A stretch of 64,000 nucleotides of DNA from Oceanispirochaeta crateris (lineage in GTDB: Bacteria; Spirochaetota; Spirochaetia; DSM-2461): the NCBI RefSeq assembly GCF_008329965.1, contig NZ_CP036150.1, positions 434,001 through 498,000 of the forward strand, written 5' to 3'. Position numbers and translations under genes: made by a program. The notes beneath the pieces are model-generated. The model worked only from the letters and a program-made list of their open reading frames with translations, was not told where the DNA came from and ran no database searches. Below are positions 3,155-28,875 of the stretch, in pieces; positions within the stretch are counted from its first letter, which is position 1; every line of letters begins with the position of its first letter.

Positions 3155-4456
3155 TCAGCCCTTACAGCGCAGGGTGACCATGTTCTTCTCTGGTCTGGTG
3201 ACCAGAAAACCATCTCTCTTACGGAAGCGGAGAAAGATCTCTCCGTATTGCAGACTCTCTGTTGTGCCGTCAAACCTTTTTAGTTCCAAGCCCTTGCGGT
3301 TGCCATGCTGGATGCGCTTGGGGTTCATAAAGACTGCGAAGGGTTCACTCTTCTTTACTTCTCCCGCCTGGGGTAGAAGATCGCACTCCTGATAAGGGTA
3401 CCCGTCTACAAGGCCGGGTTTACCGTCTGAAGGGCCTCTCCACACGGGGCGGCCGTCAGAGTCCTGGATACTGGTAACCCGGGAGAGGACAGACTCATGG
3501 AGGAACCAGCGGCAATGGCGCCTTTCTTCAGCAGGGACCTTGAGGACCGCTTCTCTGAAGTCCAGGTAGGTCAAACCGTAGGGGGAGGCGCTTTTGATGT
3601 AGTGAGACAGGGGTCCCTTGATGGACAAGACTCCCGTAAAGGGTGACTCATTGGCGGTCAGGCACTGGCGGTCAAACTCTTGGCCATAGGCATCTGTAAA
3701 CTCCTCTATAAACATCTGGCCCAGCTCGGCGTAGATATCCTCTTCAAACTCATCGTACCAGGGGATAAAGCCTGCCAGGGTATAGGCTTTCAGTTCCACA
3801 CGCTTTCCCATCTGAGGTTTGCTGTCGGTGATCTGCTGGCCATAGCTTGTGAGCCAGTTCAGAATCACCCCGCCTCTGTCCCTCTGGGGGAGGAAAAGGG
3901 AGGGGCCTGTCATGGGACGATTGGAGACCAGACTCATCATGACGCTGGTCTTGCGGGCGTCACTCATGATCTGGGTCTCGTAGATGGGATTGATCAGATA
4001 CTGATCATTGCTTGTCATATCCCCCATGGGGGTACCCACTGAGTCTTTACTGACCCAGCCCTTGCCGGCAACCCAGTTCATGTCCCTGGGATTCACCCAG
4101 CTCTCACCCTTAATATTGGGGATGGCCTTGAGTTCGCCCAAAGAGGCTTGATTATTCCGCCAGACACCGGCGATGGTTTTACCAAGGTTATAGCAGAACT
4201 CCTCTCGGCTTAGGACTTTGGCCGATGAGGTTGTGGTTTTGAGAGAGTCCTTCAAGGCAGATATGGTGCTCTTCATTGCCTGCAGTTCCCGGCTGTTTTC
4301 CTCATCCATCTTGGAAAGGGCTTCGGCCATGGATTCCAGGATTTCTTCTTTCTCCTGGAAATACTGCTTAGCCAGCTTTTCATCTGGAAAGCCCTCCGAC
4401 TCGATCCGCTTCATGGATTTCAGAAGCTCCGTCAGTTTCTTTAAGATCTCATTCAT
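3155..4456 (-). CDS. HK97-type major capsid protein with N-terminal scaffold domain
   Basis: 433 aa. Residues 1-85 form a charged coiled coil rich in Glu/Lys, as in the delta (scaffold) domain that HK97-type capsid proteins carry at the N-terminus and the prohead protease removes. The remainder has the length and late-domain features of the HK97 fold (AYTLAGFIPWYDEFEED, HCRWFLHESVLSRV, YPYQECDLLP, FAVFMNPKRIQ). It follows the protease gene with a short overlap. This is the shell protein of the particle. The C-terminal RFRKRDGFLVTRPEKNMVTL is also typical. Confidence 0.85.
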   Translation of the reverse strand: MNEILKKLTELLKSMKRIESEGFPDEKLAKQYFQEKEEILESMAEALSKMDEENSRELQAMKSTISALKDSLKTTTSSAKVLSREEFCYNLGKTIAGVWRNNQASLGELKAIPNIKGESWVNPRDMNWVAGKGWVSKDSVGTPMGDMTSNDQYLINPIYETQIMSDARKTSVMMSLVSNRPMTGPSLFLPQRDRGGVILNWLTSYGQQITDSKPQMGKRVELKAYTLAGFIPWYDEFEEDIYAELGQMFIEEFTDAYGQEFDRQCLTANESPFTGVLSIKGPLSHYIKSASPYGLTYLDFREAVLKVPAEERRHCRWFLHESVLSRVTSIQDSDGRPVWRGPSDGKPGLVDGYPYQECDLLPQAGEVKKSEPFAVFMNPKRIQHGNRKGLELKRFDGTTESLQYGEIFLRFRKRDGFLVTRPEKNMVTLRCKG

Positions 4457-5117
4457 AATGTCCTCCGTGTGATTTGATTATTCCTTTCCAGAAGGACGGG
4501 ATGGTCTCTTCTGATACAAGGCTGAGTTCTTCTGGGGGGATAAAGTCGCGGTTCAGGGCCATGGGGTTGCTGGGGATGTTGCAGATGGAGAACTCCAGGA
4601 GCTCCTGGCTGCGGAATATAAGGGTGGACTCGCCATCCACCTCAGCGATCTCTACTTCCCTGACCATAAATCCTACGCTTCCAGCTCTAATCACACCGGC
4701 AGCCACGCGGCGGCCTATGCCCCAGCCAAAGGGATCAATCTCTTGAGAATTGAATAGGATATTACCGCCCAAAATTCTATCTTTTACGGCTGTATCCTGT
4801 GAGAATCCTATGGCAGGGATTCGGCTGTCGTGGGCCCAGAGGATAACTGGATTCTTGAGATAGTGCTTCAGGTCCCATCCGGCGGGATCAATACGCTCGT
4901 CGTCCCGGTCCAGGTCGAAGGTACTGAAAACCCAGGGAAAAAGTTCTTCCTTTGGATCATTGGATTTCCTGAAAAATGCTCCCCCCATAAAGACTTTGAA
5001 TTCCTCTTTGAGAACGCCTTTGGGGCTGACAAGGTCTCCCTCTTTAAAGATTTGAGCCAAAGCGTTGAAGTTCCTGATTTCCTTTCCTGTTTCCAGTGCC
5101 TTGCAGTCTATGAACAT
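4449..5117 (-). CDS. HK97-type prohead protease (S78 family)
   Basis: Serine protease that matures the prohead by cutting the scaffold domain of the capsid protein. Visible signs are DRDDERIDPAGWDLKHYLKN and VILWAHD (catalytic His), the GSVGFMVREVEI segment, and SQELLEFSICNIPSNPMAL with the nucleophilic Ser in EFSICNIPSN. Length (222 aa) fits the family. It overlaps the capsid gene by a few bases downstream and follows the response-regulator gene with a 10-bp overlap, so all are translated from one message. Confidence 0.88.
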   Translation of the reverse strand: MFIDCKALETGKEIRNFNALAQIFKEGDLVSPKGVLKEEFKVFMGGAFFRKSNDPKEELFPWVFSTFDLDRDDERIDPAGWDLKHYLKNPVILWAHDSRIPAIGFSQDTAVKDRILGGNILFNSQEIDPFGWGIGRRVAAGVIRAGSVGFMVREVEIAEVDGESTLIFRSQELLEFSICNIPSNPMALNRDFIPPEELSLVSEETIPSFWKGIIKSHGGHYE

Positions 5118-5764
5118 ATACTTTCCTCCCTTTCGATAATGCCATTGCGAATGGCAAAGTGGATCAGCTGGTCTACACTGGATAGTCCGTACTTAATCCT
5201 TACAGTGTGCTTGTGTTTCTCTACAGTCTTTATATTCAAATGGAGCATTTCGGAGATCTCAATATTTGTGTAACTCCTGGCTGAAAGTTCCAGGATCTGA
5301 GCCTGACGAACAGTAACGTCGGTGTATTTCTGGAAGTACTTTTCATAGTCGTTATCCCTTAAAAGCTCCCATACTTCTTCGGGGTATATCTTTTGCCCCC
5401 AAGAGACCCGCTCCAGGCAGTCATAAGCCTGTTCATAGGTAGCCGAGTAGTCGATCAGACCTGTGGCTCCTTGCTTGGCGCATTTGACGCCTATCATCTT
5501 GTTCAGCTTCCGGCAGTAAGCCAGGATAAGAGGGTGGTAATCTCTGGATTGGATACTTTTAAGAATCGAAAGGCCGTTCATGCCAGGCAGGAACAAATCG
5601 AGGATTATTAAATTGGGGCGCATCTCTTCAATACATCTGAGCGCTTCAGGTCCCCGGGAACAATAGGCACAGATTGTACCCAGCTGACTTTGTTCCACCG
5701 TATGTGTGATGATGGAACCGATGAAGGCATCCTTCCCGGAGACCATGATTTCCTTGGTCTTCAC
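5108..5764 (-). CDS. LuxR/NarL-type response regulator embedded in the phage head operon
   Basis: 218 aa: an N-terminal receiver (about 4-125) and a LuxR HTH (about 148-210, TVRQAQILELSARSYTNIEISEML with KTVEKHKHTV). The phospho-acceptor Asp56 is present (ILDLFLPGMNG), but the acidic pair expected near residues 8-11 is absent (MVSGKD). The conserved Thr/Ser and Lys positions are also replaced (LILAYC, GLIDYS), so it may work without phosphorylation. It overlaps the portal stop by 4 bp and the protease start by 10 bp, so it is a true operon member. A response regulator at this position is unusual. It may bind the dyads at 7076 and 11682, whose 7-2-7 spacing resembles NarL-family sites (inference). 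Confidence 0.85.
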   Translation of the reverse strand: MKTKEIMVSGKDAFIGSIITHTVEQSQLGTICAYCSRGPEALRCIEEMRPNLIILDLFLPGMNGLSILKSIQSRDYHPLILAYCRKLNKMIGVKCAKQGATGLIDYSATYEQAYDCLERVSWGQKIYPEEVWELLRDNDYEKYFQKYTDVTVRQAQILELSARSYTNIEISEMLHLNIKTVEKHKHTVRIKYGLSSVDQLIHFAIRNGIIEREESICS

Positions 5765-7041
5765 AGAATGTCCTCAGTGAACTGTTGTTCATTAGACGGG
5801 CACTTACCGCCCCATTTTCCCTTGAACTGTGGATTTTGATCTTTTGATTCAAAAGAATCTGCATTTTTTTTATTTTTTTGAGGATTCTGGTGCCATTTAT
5901 CTCCCCAGGGCTTGGGAGGGAGACCTCTTTCAGCGAGAACATCATTGATAGTCTTCAGTCCCGCTTCTATTTCCCGGATATCTCTTTGGCTCTTTTCGTC
6001 CGCTGATTCCTGCAGTTCAGGAATGCTGCTGAGATCAAAAGATCCACGTTCCTTAAGGCCAAAACGGACAAAGAACTGTGTCTCTAAAATCTGTTCAAAG
6101 TTTTTGAGTAAGGGGATGATAGTATACTTCCAAAAAGCGCTGTGCTGACTGGCGGTATCGCTGCCGCTAAGAGAGCTCTTTGAGTCCTGGATATTGGCTA
6201 CCCGGGGAGGTATCCCGTAACGGGAGAGAAGGGTATAGAGATTCCATCGTTTCAGGTCGAAGGACTTGAGGGCTGCGGGTGTAACGGTCAGAGACTGGAA
6301 GGAGGTTCCTTTACCTAGGACGGCAATGGACCGAGCCTTCCGGTTACGGCCATAGCTGGACTCCCAGCGCTTCTCCAAGCGATCAGCCTCTTCTTCTCTG
6401 AGGATCTGGTCGGTCTTGAGTATTCCTTCAGGAACAGCATTATTTTTTAATAGCTTGCTGATACTCTTGTTGGATCGAATATCTTGCAGAATCTCATCCG
6501 ATAGGGCTATGAGAGGTGTTACTCCGCGGTGAGGATTCCAGGGATTCCAGTCCCGAAAGTGAATCAGTTCATCGGGGAGAATGGGTATCTCACCCTGATC
6601 CGTGGCATAGAACCATCGAATGACCTTGCCATATTCCACCCAGGCCCGCATCTTACGGGGATTGAGAACGTAGATTTCCCGGGGTATTCCAGCGCTATAT
6701 TCGTCACCGAAAAACCAGAAGGCTTCGCCTTCTAGAAACCACCAGGCTGCCGTCTCTTTCCATAGATCACAGCGGTTCATACCGGGGTTAACATCGCGGA
6801 ACAGATTGAAAATTAGCCCGGAGGAGACTTCCTTACCGTTCATGGTGATAAGAAAAGGGGCCCTGCCGATATTTCGTATCAGAATACTGATGCAGATATT
6901 GACCCAAGAGTGAGACCGGTAGGGATCTGTAACTGTCTCAGAGGGCTCCCGTTCAAAAGGATTATCAAGACCCATAAACTCGGAAAATGAGAGCACTTTG
7001 AATATTTTTCTGAGGTTACGACCCCACCGGCTTCCACTCAT
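5761..7041 (-). CDS. HK97-type portal protein
   Basis: 426 aa portal subunit, which forms the dodecameric DNA entry ring of the head. Recognisable family signs are NICISILIRNIGRAPF near residue 50, WWFLEGEAFWFFG, IPREIYVLNPRKM, ELIHFRDWNPWNPHRGVTPL, and the C-terminal RYGIPPRVANI plus FEQILETQFFVRFG. The C-terminal 40 residues are charged and low-complexity. It is the first gene of the second leftward unit; a dyad operator lies 35 bp upstream of its start. Downstream it overlaps the response regulator by 4 bp. Confidence 0.88.
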   Translation of the reverse strand: MSGSRWGRNLRKIFKVLSFSEFMGLDNPFEREPSETVTDPYRSHSWVNICISILIRNIGRAPFLITMNGKEVSSGLIFNLFRDVNPGMNRCDLWKETAAWWFLEGEAFWFFGDEYSAGIPREIYVLNPRKMRAWVEYGKVIRWFYATDQGEIPILPDELIHFRDWNPWNPHRGVTPLIALSDEILQDIRSNKSISKLLKNNAVPEGILKTDQILREEEADRLEKRWESSYGRNRKARSIAVLGKGTSFQSLTVTPAALKSFDLKRWNLYTLLSRYGIPPRVANIQDSKSSLSGSDTASQHSAFWKYTIIPLLKNFEQILETQFFVRFGLKERGSFDLSSIPELQESADEKSQRDIREIEAGLKTINDVLAERGLPPKPWGDKWHQNPQKNKKNADSFESKDQNPQFKGKWGGKCPSNEQQFTEDIL

Positions 7042-7075
7042 AAGGCCAGTGTAGAAAGAAATAAAGTGATCTGGG

Positions 7076-7093
7076 GGTAGGGTTTACCCTACC
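7076..7093 (-). promoter_or_regulatory. Dyad operator, copy 1, before portal
   Basis: A perfect dyad with arms GGTAGGGT and ACCCTACC around TT, preceded on the minus strand by A5. The 2-nt centre is too tight for an RNA hairpin, so a protein-binding site is more likely than a terminator. The same dyad occurs at 11682-11697 before the xis-terL unit, the only other copy I found. Confidence 0.65.
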
Positions 7094-7341: not shown

Positions 7342-9150
7342 ATGAAAAATAAAATACTCCTCATAACCTCTTATCTGTTTCTTTCAATCATGCAGATTCA
7401 GGCTGCAGATCATGTTCGAGATCGTTTTCTAGTAATCCATACATTCTCTCATAATTTTGAATGGACAAAAAATATCCAACAGGGAATACAGGAAGTTCTA
7501 GACAAAGAGTATCCAAACGCTCTTATCAACACCGAGTATATGGATATTAAAACTCTGGATATTACTGACTTTGATATGACTTTTAAAGAGTACCTGAAGC
7601 GAAAATATGGGCATACCAATATTACGGGAATCATTATTTGTGACGATCCGGGACTCCAGTCTTTTATAAAATATAAGGATGAGATATTTCCCGATATTCC
7701 TGTTGTCGCCTGTGGTATCAATAGGCTGACCGACGAGTATAAGCTTAGCTCCATAGACTCATTCATCTTTGAAAGAGCGGATATCATTGGCAGCTACAGA
7801 GGACTTCTTCAATTGAATCCTCAGTTGAATTCCATCCATGTTGTCTACAATTCATTAAATGTAACGTATGAAATATTTACAAGCTATCGCGATTCTCAAA
7901 CTTTTGTAGGAGATAGGCTTAACGTAAATTACTATGATAATTACTTTGACAGCGATTTGCAGTTAAAGTTCTCCACGCTCGGCAAAAATGAAGTCATTTA
8001 CCTAATCCCATCTTCTGGTAAAGATAGGATTGATTCTTTTCATTTCTGCTATTTGGAAAGAGAGCTGTCACTCAACAGCAATGTCCCTATTATTGTGGGA
8101 TGGGATTATCAAGTTGGTAATGGAGTTCTGGGTGGATCTGTTATCGACTCGATTCAAATGGGGAGGCAGTCCATGAAAACCCTTCTTCATTTGACACGAG
8201 GGGAAAAGCCAAAAAGGTTCATTTACAAATATGATGGGATGTACAAACATCTCTATGATTATCAGGTGATGAAGCGATTCGGAATAGAAGAAAAACAGCT
8301 ACCAGAGGGTTCTCAGCTTATCAACCGTCCACCCTCATATTTTGAATCACATCCCATGTTTGTATCTATTGTCTCCTTTTCTTTTTTTGTTCTAATCATA
8401 GTTTTTATAAGTTATTACAGGCAATTAAAGAAGCAAAAGATCATTGTTTCTCAAAAACAGAAAATCCTTACGCTGAGAGAAGGCTATCTTGATTCCCAGG
8501 TGGAAATGATAGAAACACTGGGTGAACTTATAGAAAAGCGTTCCCATGAGACTAGTTCTCATGTCAAACGTGTTGCTTATTTAGCTGCCCTCCTGGCTGA
8601 AAAAAGCGGGATTTCAGAAAAAGAGGCAAAGATTCTGGAACTTGCTTCTCCCATGCATGATATTGGGAAGATTGCCGTTCCTGATCATATCCTTCAGAAA
8701 AAGGGTGCTCTGACAAAGGAAGAATTCGAGATTATCAAGAATCATACAGTACAAGGATTTGAGATCTTGAATAATTCCAACCATCGGCTTTTTGAAGTTG
8801 CCCGGACCATAGCCTATTCCCATCATGAAAATTGGGATGGAACAGGCTATCCTTTAGGTTTAAAGGGAGAGGAAATCCCCATAGAAGCCAGAATCACACG
8901 TGTTGTTGATGTCTTTGATGCTTTGTTGAGCAAAAGACCCTATAAAAAAGCCTGGCATTTTGATGATGTCATGGTTTATATGAAGAAAGAACGGGGAAGT
9001 CTTTTTGATCCTACCCTCCTAGATCTTTTTGTGGCAAATATCTCCGAGATTATTGAGACTTACTGGGGCTTGGAAGATCCTGAATATTATGAAGCTCTTG
9101 TTCTACAAAGAAAGGTTAAAAATATTAATCCGGTGATAGATCTGATATAG
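7342..9150 (+). CDS. Membrane sensor with periplasmic ABC-type binding domain and HD-GYP c-di-GMP phosphodiesterase
   Basis: 602 aa. A signal peptide (about 1-21) leads into a periplasmic region of about 310 residues resembling ABC substrate-binding-like sensors (VIHTFSHNFEWTKNIQQGI). One membrane segment lies at about 338-358, then a short coiled coil and an HD-GYP domain: HDIGKIAVPDHIL near 438, HTVQGFEIL, and HHENWDGTGYPLGLKG near 500. HD-GYP domains hydrolyse c-di-GMP, here under control of an outside ligand. It reads rightward, against the phage genes that flank it, and is much AT-richer, so it is later cargo or a remnant of host DNA between terL and portal. Confidence 0.9.
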   Translation: MKNKILLITSYLFLSIMQIQAADHVRDRFLVIHTFSHNFEWTKNIQQGIQEVLDKEYPNALINTEYMDIKTLDITDFDMTFKEYLKRKYGHTNITGIIICDDPGLQSFIKYKDEIFPDIPVVACGINRLTDEYKLSSIDSFIFERADIIGSYRGLLQLNPQLNSIHVVYNSLNVTYEIFTSYRDSQTFVGDRLNVNYYDNYFDSDLQLKFSTLGKNEVIYLIPSSGKDRIDSFHFCYLERELSLNSNVPIIVGWDYQVGNGVLGGSVIDSIQMGRQSMKTLLHLTRGEKPKRFIYKYDGMYKHLYDYQVMKRFGIEEKQLPEGSQLINRPPSYFESHPMFVSIVSFSFFVLIIVFISYYRQLKKQKIIVSQKQKILTLREGYLDSQVEMIETLGELIEKRSHETSSHVKRVAYLAALLAEKSGISEKEAKILELASPMHDIGKIAVPDHILQKKGALTKEEFEIIKNHTVQGFEILNNSNHRLFEVARTIAYSHHENWDGTGYPLGLKGEEIPIEARITRVVDVFDALLSKRPYKKAWHFDDVMVYMKKERGSLFDPTLLDLFVANISEIIETYWGLEDPEYYEALVLQRKVKNINPVIDLI

Positions 9151-9531: not shown

Positions 9532-10740
9532 TTAACTAAACACAATACCGTTTTGAATTCTGGAGAATATCCCGTACCTCATGGCATCCATGTAATGGTC
9601 GTTAATCTTGATAATGCGGTCCTCTTCGTCTCGGGCATAGTCCCAAATCTCGGACAGGACACCGGTGCAGGATGAGCAGACGTAAAAGAGGTTTCGCTCT
9701 ATCAGGCTGTTGATATAATCGATTCCCGGTTCTACGGCGTTATTGGCCTTCTGACCTCCTGTGATCTCCTGGATACGTTCTCCTCCTGCTGGGTCGCAGT
9801 AGACAGGTAGATCTTCGAGGAACCAGCCCTGGTCTTTCAGTTGGTCATTAAAGCTTCTTGTGGTGATATTGTGACCACCATGATCTTTCACTATATAGAC
9901 CCTCTCACCAGAATAGCCAATCTTTACATTAGTAATATTCAATCCGAAATCCTGACCGGCAGTGTAGTAATCCATTTCCGGGAGCTCTTCTGGCGGGATG
10001 ATCATGGACTCTTCAAAGCGTTCATAGATGCAGCCTTCGCCCTTTACCCAGAGCCCTTTGAGGAAGCGATCTTTCTGTTTCTCGGGGAGATTATCCAGTA
10101 CATCGTCGATATAGCCTGAGTCCAGGTGGTCAAGATTGTCCTTTGGATTGATAAGCAGGGAGGTATAGAGCCCTGGCTTATTCAAAGGATCCTCTGTCTT
10201 GAAGTCAATCTTCCGGACGAAGATCTTATATGTCCAATGGAGAGGGGAGCCCGGGTTGCAGTCATAAAGGAAAAGGTTCCGGCATCCCGGGGTCTTCATG
10301 GCCAGGCGGGAATAGGCCGTGGTGACGGCGTGATAGGAGAGCTGAGAGACTTCGTTAAAGTAAATGGTGTTGTATTCATGGCCGAGTATACGATCGACCT
10401 GTTCCCTGTCTCCCAGGCCGCCAATCCAGATCTCACTTCCGTTGTACAAAGCAATGTAGTTTTCGTGTTTAATAAAGTGGTAACGATCAGGACCAATGGT
10501 CTTGTCCAGCCAGGGCAGAAGGGTTTCGTGAAGGACGGAGCTTCGGGCGTCCTTCAGGCGGAGCCGGCAGATCAAATGACGGCTCCCGGCATACTGGATG
10601 GCCCTGTAAATCAGAACCATCACCAGTAGGGTGGTCTTCCCGCTCCTGGACCCGCCGTAGAGCAGGATGTGTTTGGCTTTACTTTTGACGAGAGAGAGAG
10701 CCTTCCTCTGGGCAGAGGTCGGCAGAAACTTGATTCTCAT
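9532..10740 (-). CDS. Terminase large subunit
   Basis: 402 aa ATPase-nuclease that cuts and pumps DNA into the head. The Walker A motif is LLYGGSRSGKTTLL near residue 30; the Walker B-like segment is YNTIYFNEVSQLSY. The RNase H-like nuclease half has Asp residues in YYTAGQDFGLNI and HYMDAMRYG. Its start overlaps terS by 4 bp. The C-terminus ends shortly after the last nuclease motif and abuts the inserted AT-rich cargo, so a few residues may have been replaced. Close to PBSX-type terminases. Confidence 0.88.
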   Translation of the reverse strand: MRIKFLPTSAQRKALSLVKSKAKHILLYGGSRSGKTTLLVMVLIYRAIQYAGSRHLICRLRLKDARSSVLHETLLPWLDKTIGPDRYHFIKHENYIALYNGSEIWIGGLGDREQVDRILGHEYNTIYFNEVSQLSYHAVTTAYSRLAMKTPGCRNLFLYDCNPGSPLHWTYKIFVRKIDFKTEDPLNKPGLYTSLLINPKDNLDHLDSGYIDDVLDNLPEKQKDRFLKGLWVKGEGCIYERFEESMIIPPEELPEMDYYTAGQDFGLNITNVKIGYSGERVYIVKDHGGHNITTRSFNDQLKDQGWFLEDLPVYCDPAGGERIQEITGGQKANNAVEPGIDYINSLIERNLFYVCSSCTGVLSEIWDYARDEEDRIIKINDHYMDAMRYGIFSRIQNGIVFS

Positions 10741-11240
10741 ACACCCTTGAAGTCTTCAAAGAAGGAGATCTCCAGTTGCTTCAGGGTGCCTTTCTCCTTC
10801 TCTTCGTCTTTCAGGATATCCGTCTCGATCTGGCTGCAGTTCTTCATCCAGTCAAGGATAGTTCCCTGAGACAGCTCATCCGGATCCAGCTTGTCCAAAC
10901 GCTTATCAACCAGGTCGAGCATCTTCTTGGACAGTTCAAGGTGCTTTGCCTGCCGTTGTCGGAGGGCTTTCTCATTCTCCTCCAGGCGGATTTTGTCCAG
11001 GTGGGCATCATACTTCTCGGCGCGGAGTACCCAAGCATAGCGCTGGGACCAGGCTAACCAGATACCGCTTCGGCTGGATGGGAGCTCCTGATCCTTTAGC
11101 ACCTTTCTGACGCTACGGCTCCCGCCGTAGTCCCGGTAGAGGCAGAAGGCGGTATAAGCCGCACCAGTCTCTCCGGGCTGACGGAGCCAGCATTCCTCTT
11201 CAATAAAAGTTCCTGACTCAATGATACTCGTTGATGCCAT
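10737..11240 (-). CDS. Terminase small subunit-like protein
   Basis: 167 aa. An N-terminal region with GAAYTAFCLYRDYGGSRSVRKVL reads as a helix-turn-helix, followed by IWLAWSQRYAWVLRAEKYDAHLDK and a long charged helical tail, the make-up of terminase small subunits that recognise the packaging site. It directly precedes terL with a 4-bp overlap, which supports the call. In satellites this protein often redirects packaging to the element's own DNA. Confidence 0.8.
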   Translation of the reverse strand: MASTSIIESGTFIEEECWLRQPGETGAAYTAFCLYRDYGGSRSVRKVLKDQELPSSRSGIWLAWSQRYAWVLRAEKYDAHLDKIRLEENEKALRQRQAKHLELSKKMLDLVDKRLDKLDPDELSQGTILDWMKNCSQIETDILKDEEKEKGTLKQLEISFFEDFKGV

Positions 11241-11242
11241 GG

Positions 11243-11401
11243 TCAGCGGCTCCTGGCCGAAAGCTCTTCGATAACCTTCAAGCAGTTTTCGAACTCAGCC
11301 TCCCAATCTTTCTTCTTCACAGTCTTGGCATGTTCCTGTCTCTTCTTAAGAAACGAAAAAGCTTGCCTGATAGTGGCTTCGGTAAGATAGGGCTTCTTCA
11401 T
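11243..11401 (-). CDS. Small hypothetical protein (52 aa) between xis and terS
   Basis: The start at 11401 overlaps the excisionase stop (ATGA-type coupling) and is preceded by a GGCGGAAAAG ribosome site. The product is basic and helical (ATIRQAFSFLKKRQEHAKTV, DWEAEFENCLKVIEEL). No family recognised. Tight spacing on both sides makes it a real operon member; a small DNA-binding or packaging helper is possible. Confidence 0.55.
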   Translation of the reverse strand: MKKPYLTEATIRQAFSFLKKRQEHAKTVKKKDWEAEFENCLKVIEELSARSR

Positions 11402-11589
11402 TTCTTTTCCGCCTCTCCGGCCGGAACTGCATTTCCTATGATCCACTTTTTGAGCTGGATTTGGTCAAACAGGAGACGACTCCCCAATTTGATATGGGGA
11501 ATCCGCTTCTGTGACGCATAGGTGTACAGGGTCTTAGTGCTGAGTCTGGTGAAGTCAGCGGCTTCTTCTACAGTTAACAGTCCTTCCAT
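11398..11589 (-). CDS. Excisionase-like helix-turn-helix protein
   Basis: 63 aa from the ATG at 11589, which follows GGAGGTAAAAAG; a longer frame to 11634 lacks a ribosome site. LTVEEAADFTRLSTKTLYTY with IPHIKLGSRLLFDQIQLKKW is the MerR-like/excisionase wHTH seen in Xis and AlpA-type proteins. It sits just downstream of the integrase and first in the xis-orf-terS-terL unit, so it could both direct excision and regulate that unit. Confidence 0.8.
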   Translation of the reverse strand: MEGLLTVEEAADFTRLSTKTLYTYASQKRIPHIKLGSRLLFDQIQLKKWIIGNAVPAGEAEKK

Positions 11590-11681
11590 CTTTTTACCTC
11601 CGATAGATTGATATAGGGTGACAACGAATCCCACAATCTTCTCTTTGGTAATACGGTAAATCCTTTTCTACAGTCAGGAGG

Positions 11682-11697
11682 GTAGGGTTTACCCTAC
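11682..11697 (-). promoter_or_regulatory. Dyad operator, copy 2, before xis-terL unit
   Basis: The arms GTAGGGT and ACCCTAC around TT repeat the dyad at 7076-7093, including the A5 tract on its upstream side. It lies about 93 bp before the excisionase start and just after the integrase stop. Together the two copies mark the fronts of both late units, suggesting one shared regulator. Confidence 0.65.
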
Positions 11698-11701
11698 TTT
11701 T

Positions 11702-12868
11702 TCATACAACTTTGTGAAATGAGAGGATCTTGGATTGAACATCCCCTATCTCTTTTAAATCTTCAGCAGCATAATGTGTATAGTGGTCGGTCATGACAGA
11801 TGATTGGTGTCCGGTCATACTTCGAAGCTTACTGTCTGAAATATTGTTGCTTCTCATTACAGTATTGAAGTAATGCCGCCAGCTATGAAAGGTTATGTTC
11901 TTTGCCTTGATTTCTTCAGCTTTCATACCGGACTTAACCAGGGCTGTTGTAAAGGCTCGTGAAATGGAAGTAGGGTGCATGGGATCACCATGATTATGAG
12001 TAGAAGCTAGAATATAATCTTCGTCAGATCTTCTGTCTAAATTCAACAGTTCATCGATCAACGATTGTGGTAGAGGCACCTCTCTGGATTTATGGTTCTT
12101 CGTATCGGTAACACCAAATTTTGCATGATATTGCCTGGAAATTGAAACTATCCCTATGCCAAGGTCTGAGTACTTTAATCCGCGGACTTCACCGATTCTC
12201 ATTCCTGTACAGGCTGCTATTAAGCTGGCATAGTAGCATTTTTTATTGGGCCAGTACTCCATGATATTAGATTGGTCAAATATTTTTCGAACAGTCTCAT
12301 GGGATAGTATCCCTCTAGTGAATTCAGTCTTTTTGAGCTGAAGAACTTTTCGGCTAACATCTTCTTTCAATATGTCTCGGCGGATTGCCTCGGTCATCAT
12401 GATCCTGAGAAACCTCAGATAGTGATTAGCAGAAGTATTAGACTGGCCGCTGTCCACCAAAGATTGCAACCACTGTTCGATATCATAAATTCTGATGTCA
12501 GCCAACCTCATATCCTTAAAGTAGGGCATGATATGATTCTTTAAAATAAGTCGTCCTGTACTGGCATAGCTTTTTGAGATGTTTCGCCTGGTGCGTTTAT
12601 ACTTAAGGTATTCGCATTTATCCCAATCCCACCAATTCTTGGCATAATCCCTGAATGTTATTCTTCCCACCGTATCGGGCAAAAGCTTTCCCTCACGTAG
12701 GAGTTTCTGGCAGATATGACGGGCTGCAGACTTAGATGTCTGGCCTGTAGAATAAGCGCTTGTTCTTTTTCCAGAATCGTCATAGGTTTGATAGTACCAG
12801 ATGACTTTTCCAGATCTCATTTTTCTTGGGTATACTGTAAATGGCTCTCTGTATCTCACTGTTTCCAT
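11702..12868 (-). CDS. int: Phage-type tyrosine recombinase (integrase)
   Basis: 388 aa. There is an N-terminal AP2-like/arm-binding part, a SAM-like core-binding domain (about 80-180) and a catalytic domain: AACTGMRIGEVRGLKYSDL carries the first Arg, FHSWRHYFNT the H-x-x-R, GHQSSVMTDHYTHY the late His and the Tyr nucleophile. It integrates and excises the phage-like element. It lacks the extra helix region typical of integron IntI proteins between the second and third catalytic boxes, so it is not the integrase of the cassette array 140 bp away. The likely attachment site lies between its start and 13,017, where a half attC is found. Confidence 0.92.
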   Translation of the reverse strand: METVRYREPFTVYPRKMRSGKVIWYYQTYDDSGKRTSAYSTGQTSKSAARHICQKLLREGKLLPDTVGRITFRDYAKNWWDWDKCEYLKYKRTRRNISKSYASTGRLILKNHIMPYFKDMRLADIRIYDIEQWLQSLVDSGQSNTSANHYLRFLRIMMTEAIRRDILKEDVSRKVLQLKKTEFTRGILSHETVRKIFDQSNIMEYWPNKKCYYASLIAACTGMRIGEVRGLKYSDLGIGIVSISRQYHAKFGVTDTKNHKSREVPLPQSLIDELLNLDRRSDEDYILASTHNHGDPMHPTSISRAFTTALVKSGMKAEEIKAKNITFHSWRHYFNTVMRSNNISDSKLRSMTGHQSSVMTDHYTHYAAEDLKEIGDVQSKILSFHKVV

Positions 12869-20286: not shown

Positions 20287-21252
20287 ATGAAACCACCGTA
20301 TGATATTACGAAAACAATATTGGATTTATATGGGCAAATAACAGAAGCATTGGGTATCTGCCAAAGCTTTATGCTTGTTAAACCAGAAGCACGACTACGC
20401 CGTCAAAACCGAATTAAAACAATCCAATCATCTCTTTCAATAGAAGGTAATACACTCAATATTGAGAATGTAACAGCATTATTAGATAATCAAAGAATTA
20501 TTGGTCCAAAAAAAGACATCATCGAAGTACAGAATGCTATCAAAGCATATGATCAGTTGAATGAATTGAGGCCATTCAATAAAAATGATTTTCTTTCAGC
20601 ACATGGAATACTAATGAAAGATTTAGTAAAAGCACCTGGAGAATATAGAAAATCACAAGTAGGAATTATGAAGGGGAAGGAAGTAACACATATTGCCCCC
20701 ACATCAGAAATGGTTCCTGGCCTAATGAATGACTTATTCAAATACCTTAAAGAAGATACAGATTTAGAAATTATCAAAAGCTGTGTCTTTCACTATGAGA
20801 TGGAATTCATTCATCCCTTTGAAGACGGAAACGGAAGAATGGGGAGATATTGGCAAACACGCATATTGATGAAAGTAAATCCAATATTTGAATTTGTACC
20901 AATTGAAAAGCTAATTAAAGATCATCAGAAAGAGTATTATCAGGCCTTATCAATTTCAGATAATACCGGAAAATCAACTGTATTTATTGAATTCATGCTA
21001 AACATCATAAATCAAGCATTACGTGATACGATTAATGAATCAAAGCCAGCAAGCCCAGATTATCAAAAACGCACAGAAGTTGCTCTCTCTCAGCTGGATA
21101 GCTGGTTTGATAGAAAAGAATATATGAAAGTATGTAAAGGAATCTCTAGTGCTACAGCTAGTAGAGATTTAAAACAGTTAATTGAAGAAAACAGGATTGA
21201 GTCTACAGGTAAAGGTAGAATGACAAAATATAGAATGGAAAAGAGTGGATAA
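20287..21252 (+). CDS. Fic family protein with C-terminal winged helix, cassette 5
   Basis: 321 aa. IHPFEDGNGRMGRYW near residue 175 is the intact Fic motif for AMP transfer. SSLSIEGNTL contains the self-inhibitory S-x3-E-G helix (Ser49, Glu53, Gly54). The C-terminus (YMKVCKGISSATASRDLKQL, IESTGKGRMTKYRM) is a DeoR/MarR-like winged helix, so the protein may bind DNA, plausibly the palindrome just upstream. The stop codon lies inside the attC R box. The protein is identical in sequence to the copy at 27910. Confidence 0.9.
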   Translation: MKPPYDITKTILDLYGQITEALGICQSFMLVKPEARLRRQNRIKTIQSSLSIEGNTLNIENVTALLDNQRIIGPKKDIIEVQNAIKAYDQLNELRPFNKNDFLSAHGILMKDLVKAPGEYRKSQVGIMKGKEVTHIAPTSEMVPGLMNDLFKYLKEDTDLEIIKSCVFHYEMEFIHPFEDGNGRMGRYWQTRILMKVNPIFEFVPIEKLIKDHQKEYYQALSISDNTGKSTVFIEFMLNIINQALRDTINESKPASPDYQKRTEVALSQLDSWFDRKEYMKVCKGISSATASRDLKQLIEENRIESTGKGRMTKYRMEKSG

Positions 21253-27909: not shown

Positions 27910-28875
27910 ATGAAACCACCGTATGATATTACGAAAACAATATTGGATTTATATGGGCAAATAACAGAAGCATTGGGTATCTGCCAAAGCTTTATGCTTG
28001 TTAAACCAGAAGCACGACTACGCCGTCAAAACCGAATTAAAACAATCCAATCATCTCTTTCAATAGAAGGTAATACACTCAATATTGAGAATGTAACAGC
28101 ATTATTAGATAATCAAAGAATTATTGGTCCAAAAAAAGACATCATCGAAGTACAGAATGCTATCAAAGCATATGATCAGTTGAATGAATTGAGGCCATTC
28201 AATAAAAATGATTTTCTTTCAGCACATGGAATACTAATGAAAGATTTAGTAAAAGCACCTGGAGAATATAGAAAATCACAAGTAGGAATTATGAAGGGGA
28301 AGGAAGTAACACATATTGCCCCCACATCAGAAATGGTTCCTGGCCTAATGAATGACTTATTCAAATACCTTAAAGAAGATACAGATTTAGAAATTATCAA
28401 AAGCTGTGTCTTTCACTATGAGATGGAATTCATTCATCCCTTTGAAGACGGAAACGGAAGAATGGGGAGATATTGGCAAACACGCATATTGATGAAAGTA
28501 AATCCAATATTTGAATTTGTACCAATTGAAAAGCTAATTAAAGATCATCAGAAAGAGTATTATCAGGCCTTATCAATTTCAGATAATACCGGAAAATCAA
28601 CTGTATTTATTGAATTCATGCTAAACATCATAAATCAAGCATTACGTGATACGATTAATGAATCAAAGCCAGCAAGCCCAGATTATCAAAAACGCACAGA
28701 AGTTGCTCTCTCTCAGCTGGATAGCTGGTTTGATAGAAAAGAATATATGAAAGTATGTAAAGGAATCTCTAGTGCTACAGCTAGTAGAGATTTAAAACAG
28801 TTAATTGAAGAAAATAGGATTGAGTCTACAGGTAAAGGTAGAATGACAAAATATAGAATGGAAAAGAGTGGATAA
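27910..28875 (+). CDS. Fic family protein, identical copy, cassette 12
   Basis: Protein identical to that at 20287-21252, with Fic motif HPFEDGNGRMGR, inhibitory helix SIEGNT and C-terminal winged helix. Both copies keep the operator palindrome, so both should respond to one another's product. Confidence 0.9.
   Translation: MKPPYDITKTILDLYGQITEALGICQSFMLVKPEARLRRQNRIKTIQSSLSIEGNTLNIENVTALLDNQRIIGPKKDIIEVQNAIKAYDQLNELRPFNKNDFLSAHGILMKDLVKAPGEYRKSQVGIMKGKEVTHIAPTSEMVPGLMNDLFKYLKEDTDLEIIKSCVFHYEMEFIHPFEDGNGRMGRYWQTRILMKVNPIFEFVPIEKLIKDHQKEYYQALSISDNTGKSTVFIEFMLNIINQALRDTINESKPASPDYQKRTEVALSQLDSWFDRKEYMKVCKGISSATASRDLKQLIEENRIESTGKGRMTKYRMEKSG

Follow-up and report, generated by a model that had tools for sequence, protein, structure and literature searches.

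A pseudo-receiver/LuxR protein encoded in the head cassette of spirochaete proviruses is a probable late-gene activator

We propose that a response-regulator-like protein, encoded among the head genes of an integrated element, is probably a kinase-independent, dedicated late-gene activator of a family of spirochaete proviruses. The element lies in a 64,000-nucleotide stretch of DNA (hereafter, the window) that corresponds to positions 434001-498000 of a 4.01-Mb, one-contig genome (G000). The proposal is based on the state of the receiver domain, on the place of the gene in related elements, and on operator-like sites found at late promoters.

Results

The element and its head cassette

The left 13 kb of the window is the right part of the integrated element, which is transcribed from the minus strand. 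The gene order is integrase, xis, TerS, TerL, an inverted HD-GYP cargo gene, portal, regulator, protease, capsid and three more genes. Upstream of the head genes on this strand are the tyrosine integrase (11702..12868; PF00589) and the small (10737..11240; phrog_6299) and large (9532..10740; PF04466, PF03237) terminase subunits. The regulator itself, which was recognized by Pfam, conservation and an AlphaFold2 model, is a 218-aa ORF with a GTG start that runs from 5764 to 5108 on the minus strand. Its start overlaps the portal gene (5761..7041, minus strand; PF04860, 5.4e-56; phrog_12) by 4 bp, and its end overlaps the start of the head maturation protease gene (4449..5117, minus strand; phrog_80, phrog_617, phrog_11321) by 10 bp. 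The HK97-type major capsid protein is encoded next (3155..4456, minus strand; PF05065, 9e-22). The ORF coordinates and the Pfam matches thus confirm the initial annotation, in which a receiver-LuxR protein was placed between portal and protease and overlapped both. Two further elements from the same genus (L010 and L011) show identical overlaps of 4 and 10 bp.

To the left of the window, the element continues with an insertion sequence and cargo, followed by genes for probable connectors, 286-aa, 503-aa and fibre-like proteins, and a D5-type primase. We had considered the small convergent ORF at 1385-1681 as the end of the element, and this was dropped given that continuation; a search for short direct repeats beside this ORF or beside the integrase gene, as att sites, found none. 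The ORF encodes 98 aa with a Cys-rich C-terminus and has no Pfam match, and homologues are similarly placed in 36 loci. The complete members in Treponema are bounded by tRNA-end repeats (37-80 bp in the clearest cases) that lie 22-42 kb apart, and a tail-less 9-kb satellite was therefore dropped as a description of the element. Head genes are present, no tape measure or tail tube was recognized in the complete Treponema members, no tail family was recognized in the element, and the core genes of 259, 500 and 431 aa are unassigned. The element may be either an autonomous phage or a satellite.

We also noted several features of the cargo. The HD-GYP protein (7342-9150) is encoded in the opposite orientation, by an insertion between TerL and the portal promoter, and other elements carry different cargo between their modules, with the downstream promoter intact. 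Module boundaries therefore look like cargo hot spots. Elsewhere in the window, two ORFs about 7.6 kb apart (20287-21252 and 27910-28875) have identical 321-aa Fic-like translations.

Loss of the receiver active site

The N-terminal domain of the regulator matched PF00072 (4.5e-12, residues 17-104), and the C-terminal domain matched PF00196 (GerE; 1.5e-7, residues 151-204). The AlphaFold2 model consists of a confident (beta-alpha)5 receiver and a four-helix GerE domain, with a mean pLDDT of 92.8, and its best PDB matches in Foldseek were RcsB, LiaR, VraR and EvgA. In other words, Pfam (above the cut-offs), AlphaFold2 and Foldseek agree on a NarL/FixJ-type response regulator fold, with a receiver and a GerE/LuxR HTH in one chain.

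Next, the residues of the phospho-switch were assigned by alignment to EvgA and to 160 homologues. The window regulator has Asp56, but Gly10 and Lys11 stand at the acidic-pair positions, Cys84 at that of the Thr and Tyr106 at that of the Lys, so that Asp56 alone remains of the NarL/FixJ switch. This is the pattern described in the initial annotation, and it was borne out by both alignments. The full residue set was found in none of the 151 distinct homologues; the acidic pair is likewise absent from all of them, and the receiver Lys occurs in few. Position 56 is Asp in 53 of these homologues, Glu in 48, Gly in 26 and Ser in 11. Because the receiver active site has been lost across the whole family, the regulator is likely to be independent of phosphorylation, as had also been suggested in the initial annotation. 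Judged from its residues, it is a pseudo-receiver by the definition given in PMC12632262. The GerE positions Thr151, Glu154, Gly164, Ile170, Thr180, Val181 and His184 are still those of a LuxR-type HTH, and Gly164, Ile170, Thr180 and Val181 are retained in about 80% of the homologues.

Conservation across the provirus family

The closest regulator homologues (50-55%) occupy the same place in elements of two other genomes (G004 and G002). A portal-based search of the phylum detected 20 further loci in the class Spirochaetia, each with an ORF of 212-247 aa in the portal-protease gap. We then compared a portal alignment with one genome per species (84,980 species) and with IMG/VR and obtained 160 loci; the relatives in named collections are almost all Spirochaetia. 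At every one of the 152 loci with both neighbours on the contig, a match to the family profile lies between portal and protease in the same orientation, with E values from 1e-10 to 1e-83, where about 20 of the 152 loci overlap the training set of the profile. The identity of these homologues falls as low as about 15%. The regulator was present in 148 of 152 non-redundant loci overall. According to the initial annotation, absence of the gene from related elements would point to a chance local insertion; given a homologue at 152 of 152 loci, we rejected such an insertion. The conserved position also supports the earlier idea that the regulator is made in step with the head proteins.

The regulator diverges much faster than its neighbouring genes, and its identity to the Treponema elements is 14-20%, as compared with 55-60% for the portal. 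The whole-gene dN/dS is 0.00-0.24, with purifying selection in the receiver and the HTH alike. A viral-contig search with the regulator alone gave no match, and regulator matches in phage records were without head-operon context in the four records examined.

Several loci deserve separate mention. A Syntrophomonadaceae MAG (L093) and a Fibrobacteria MAG (L131) contain the same element type with the regulator in bins labelled as non-spirochaete, which reflects either mis-binning or a wider host range. Remnants of decayed elements are found on a single contig, at L009:13799-14455 and L009:9379-9918 (G004:C6). They have lost portal, protease and capsid but still have the regulator gene: one copy is intact behind a dyad promoter, and the other contains a stop.

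Operator dyads at late promoters

Two dyads had been pointed out in the initial annotation, and both proved to be real: they are identical 16-bp inverted repeats of 7-2-7 form, and only 0.25 matches with up to 3 mismatches are expected by chance in the window. One copy of GTAGGGTAAACCCTAC (7077..7092, minus strand) precedes the portal-regulator-protease-capsid module, and the other (11682..11697, minus strand) precedes the xis-TerS-TerL module. A third lies just left of the window, at G000:C1:427598, before a connector/tail-like module. The 4.0-Mb genome thus contains three exact copies of GTAGGGTAAACCCTAC, one ahead of each element module, and the sole other near match, with 1 mismatch, is inside a host ORF.

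Each window dyad is followed after 23 nt by a -10 element on the same strand, namely TACACT (7048..7053), 6 nt before the portal ATG, and TACCGT (11653..11658) in front of xis. The dyad centre is 31 nt upstream of the -10 box. The same spacing of 23 nt to the start of the -10 element holds for all three promoters of the window element and for the portal promoters of seven relatives. Among 20 late promoters (those of the portal in the window clade and of the 259-aa gene in Treponema), 19 have TAnnnT exactly 6 nt before the ATG, which would place +1 on the A of the ATG or on a neighbouring nucleotide, as in a leaderless mRNA. Promoters of this kind include those at 7041-7053 of the window and in L049, L053, L104, L105 and L118, and leaderless late mRNAs are accordingly predicted as a conserved trait of the whole family. 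The -35 matches at the late promoters average 2.2 of 6, as against 2.6 for shuffled sequences, and are therefore no better than chance; L062 is the one exception, with 5 of 6. Late promoters of the element thus have a common cis site where the -35 is missing, and the element itself carries the regulator gene as a conserved component, as is expected of a late activator.

The Treponema elements have sequences unlike the window operator that recur in both the xis gap and the gap in front of the 259-aa gene. Some of these are dyads, such as TTGCAAAATGCCAA-N6-TTGGCACTTTGCAA, and several look like direct repeats rather than dyads. A scan for perfect palindromes across loci gave matches in 13 of 125 loci (0 of 125 shuffled); such a scan misses the many operators that are direct repeats or imperfect dyads, and given this low sensitivity a gap-to-gap comparison was used in its place. 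In 14 of 15 elements, the xis gap best matched the downstream module gap of the same element, and in the remaining one (L054) the own gap was the second-best match. The mean score of own gap pairs was 51, as compared with 18, and no permutation out of 10000 reached this result. When palindromy was averaged over 13 elements with unrelated operators, the peak (4.6 versus a mean of 3.05, sd 0.53) again fell 31 nt ahead of the -10, at the offset seen in the window clade. In genome G429, the exact half-site of the L104 type occurs at three places, all within the ~20 kb that holds the element, and two of these are known promoters.

Which protein reads the operators

The core of the Treponema elements contains two conserved predicted DNA-binding proteins, xis and the regulator. 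In the window, xis is a small excisionase/AlpA-like HTH protein (11398..11634, minus strand) and the only other conserved DNA-binding protein of the core. We therefore considered the possibility that xis or a host factor reads the dyads, and that the regulator does something else, such as binding head proteins or other DNA. One dyad is directly upstream of xis, and two elements, L120 and L122, have a common operator and a common xis but different regulators (~51% identical); the regulator of L120 is 77% identical to that of L105, yet the operator of L105 is different. In addition, the similarity of xis gaps correlates better with xis (matrix correlation, 0.17) than with the regulator HTH, for which a weak correlation (0.05) is left after correction for xis and portal. 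However, the xis gap is physically linked to xis, so that these matrix correlations are uninformative about the HTH.

A more direct comparison is provided by L118, L119 and L122. The xis of L118 is identical to those of L119 and L122 over the 75 residues compared, and most of the sequence downstream of the operator is conserved as well; the operators are nevertheless unrelated and the regulators only ~38% identical. Therefore, xis is not the factor that determines operator specificity. A single host factor is excluded by L118 and L105, whose operators differ although both elements are located in one genome (G426). The 7-2-7 form of the dyad and its position near -43 also suit a LuxR-type dimer. 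Taken together, we consider the reading by xis or a host factor rather unlikely, and the combination of identical xis, different regulators and unrelated sites points to the regulator as the putative operator reader. Cargo-encoded regulators that escaped detection may act as further readers.

The recognition-helix motif K[TA]V[ED][KW]HK coincides with operator type STAGGGTNNACCCTAS in eight of eight elements and in none of the 153 others. This association supports the regulator as the reader but is not phylogenetically independent, because these regulators (with the TAGGGT operator) form the clade closest to the window. As a separate observation, regulators appear to have been exchanged between otherwise close elements (L118 versus L119/L122; L120), and L186 and L201 have nearly identical regulators and xis gaps despite strongly diverged portals.

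Discussion

Based on these results, we infer a scheme of binding, dimerization, activation and feedback by the regulator. Owing to the overlapping genes, the regulator would be made together with portal and protease. It would dimerize without phosphorylation, and the dimer would bind the 7-2-7 dyad centred near -43, where it would replace the missing -35 contact and recruit a sigma-70-type RNA polymerase. Its predicted targets are the three modules xis-TerS-TerL, portal-regulator-protease-capsid and connectors-tail-like-primase. Since the regulator gene sits in an operon that it would itself activate, a positive-feedback latch may result, and this latch would keep the modules in step even with cargo genes inserted between them.

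Activation rather than repression is suggested by the missing -35 and by the position of the site. A repressor acting at the same operators, in the control of lysogeny or timing, was also considered: NarL-family proteins can repress, the site is placed where RNA polymerase could be blocked, and in L057, the smallest complete element, none of the genes was seen to encode a CI-type repressor. However, promoters whose -35 is no better than chance need an activator, and a repressor that is itself part of the head operon would not appear until those genes were already on. We therefore regard repression as quite unlikely. The dyads might instead be terminators for plus-strand transcription (antisense or cargo) and unrelated to the regulator. 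On the plus strand, the dyads at 7074-7090 and 11679-11695 are indeed followed by T runs, with weak terminator scores, but the dyads of L010, L061 and L064 have no such T runs, the dyad does not vary between its three sites or between species, its distance to the -10 is constant, and other elements have unrelated sites at the same offset, all of which makes this reading very improbable. The initial annotation had proposed either a late-gene or a host take-over regulator; the reprogramming of host genes would fit a domain type that is that of host regulators and signalling cargo such as HD-GYP, but we consider it scarcely credible because the exact sites are confined to the element (three of three in both G000 and G429), and the operator varies between elements, unlike a fixed host target. 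The late-gene part of that proposal is retained, because the position is conserved at 152 of 152 loci and private operators are found at late promoters.

It is also conceivable, albeit unlikely, that the pseudo-receiver is an assembly sensor. It would bind a head component, such as free portal or protease, in place of a phosphoryl group and couple late transcription to capsid assembly, and the fast divergence of the regulator would reflect co-evolution with private operators that insulate elements sharing one cell.

If the activator proposal is true, the whole family of these proviruses has a transcription activator derived from a response regulator whose receiver chemistry is lost, and in many elements its operators can already be read off the sequence. 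With operators that can be predicted for many of them, the ~150 naturally occurring viral variants would then provide a direct test bed for receiver function without phosphorylation and for specificity change in NarL-type recognition helices. The regulator would also serve as a hallmark gene for finding little-described spirochaete proviruses.

Comparison with known systems

The regulator resembles the NarL/FixJ regulators (RcsB, LiaR, VraR, EvgA and NarL) in domain order and predicted fold, and the 7-2-7 inverted repeat of the dyads resembles NarL sites. In contrast to these regulators, its receiver active site is destroyed, its gene is located in a viral head cassette, no kinase partner was seen, and its predicted regulon is limited to its own element. 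The role proposed here is that of P2 Ogr and P4 delta, which are late-gene activators and small zinc-binding proteins. The window protein differs from them in its receiver-LuxR fold and in an operator that changes from element to element, and it falls outside the Ogr/delta family, since receiver and GerE are its only Pfam domains. In the psu-delta-sid operon, P4 delta has capsid-directing genes as its neighbours, and it activates late genes (PMC8628076).

Pseudo-receivers are common, and their activation and inactivation were called a mystery in a 2025 review (PMC12632262), the main text of which does not mention phages. As in these atypical response regulators, Asp is missing from about two-thirds of the homologues studied here; unlike them, the present protein belongs to the hallmark genes of a provirus family. 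VqmA of VP882, a LuxR-family quorum receptor, is likewise a phage-encoded LuxR-family DNA-binding protein (PMC10274711). However, receptors of the VqmA type detect autoinducers (PMC10274711), whereas the protein described here has an N-terminal receiver fold and is encoded in a head operon.

In a 2024 survey of Treponema prophages, the terms 'response regulator' and 'LuxR' do not occur, and morphologies were assigned from sheath or tape-measure genes. The capsid-forming PICIs, which by definition have head and packaging genes of their own and lack tail genes (PMC10690885), share with the present element an integrase, a small HTH protein, TerS/TerL, portal, protease, capsid and probable connectors. 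In contrast to these PICIs, the elements described here span 22-42 kb between tRNA att repeats and also contain core genes for proteins of 259 and 500 aa, a fibre-like protein and a D5 primase, which may form a tail module.
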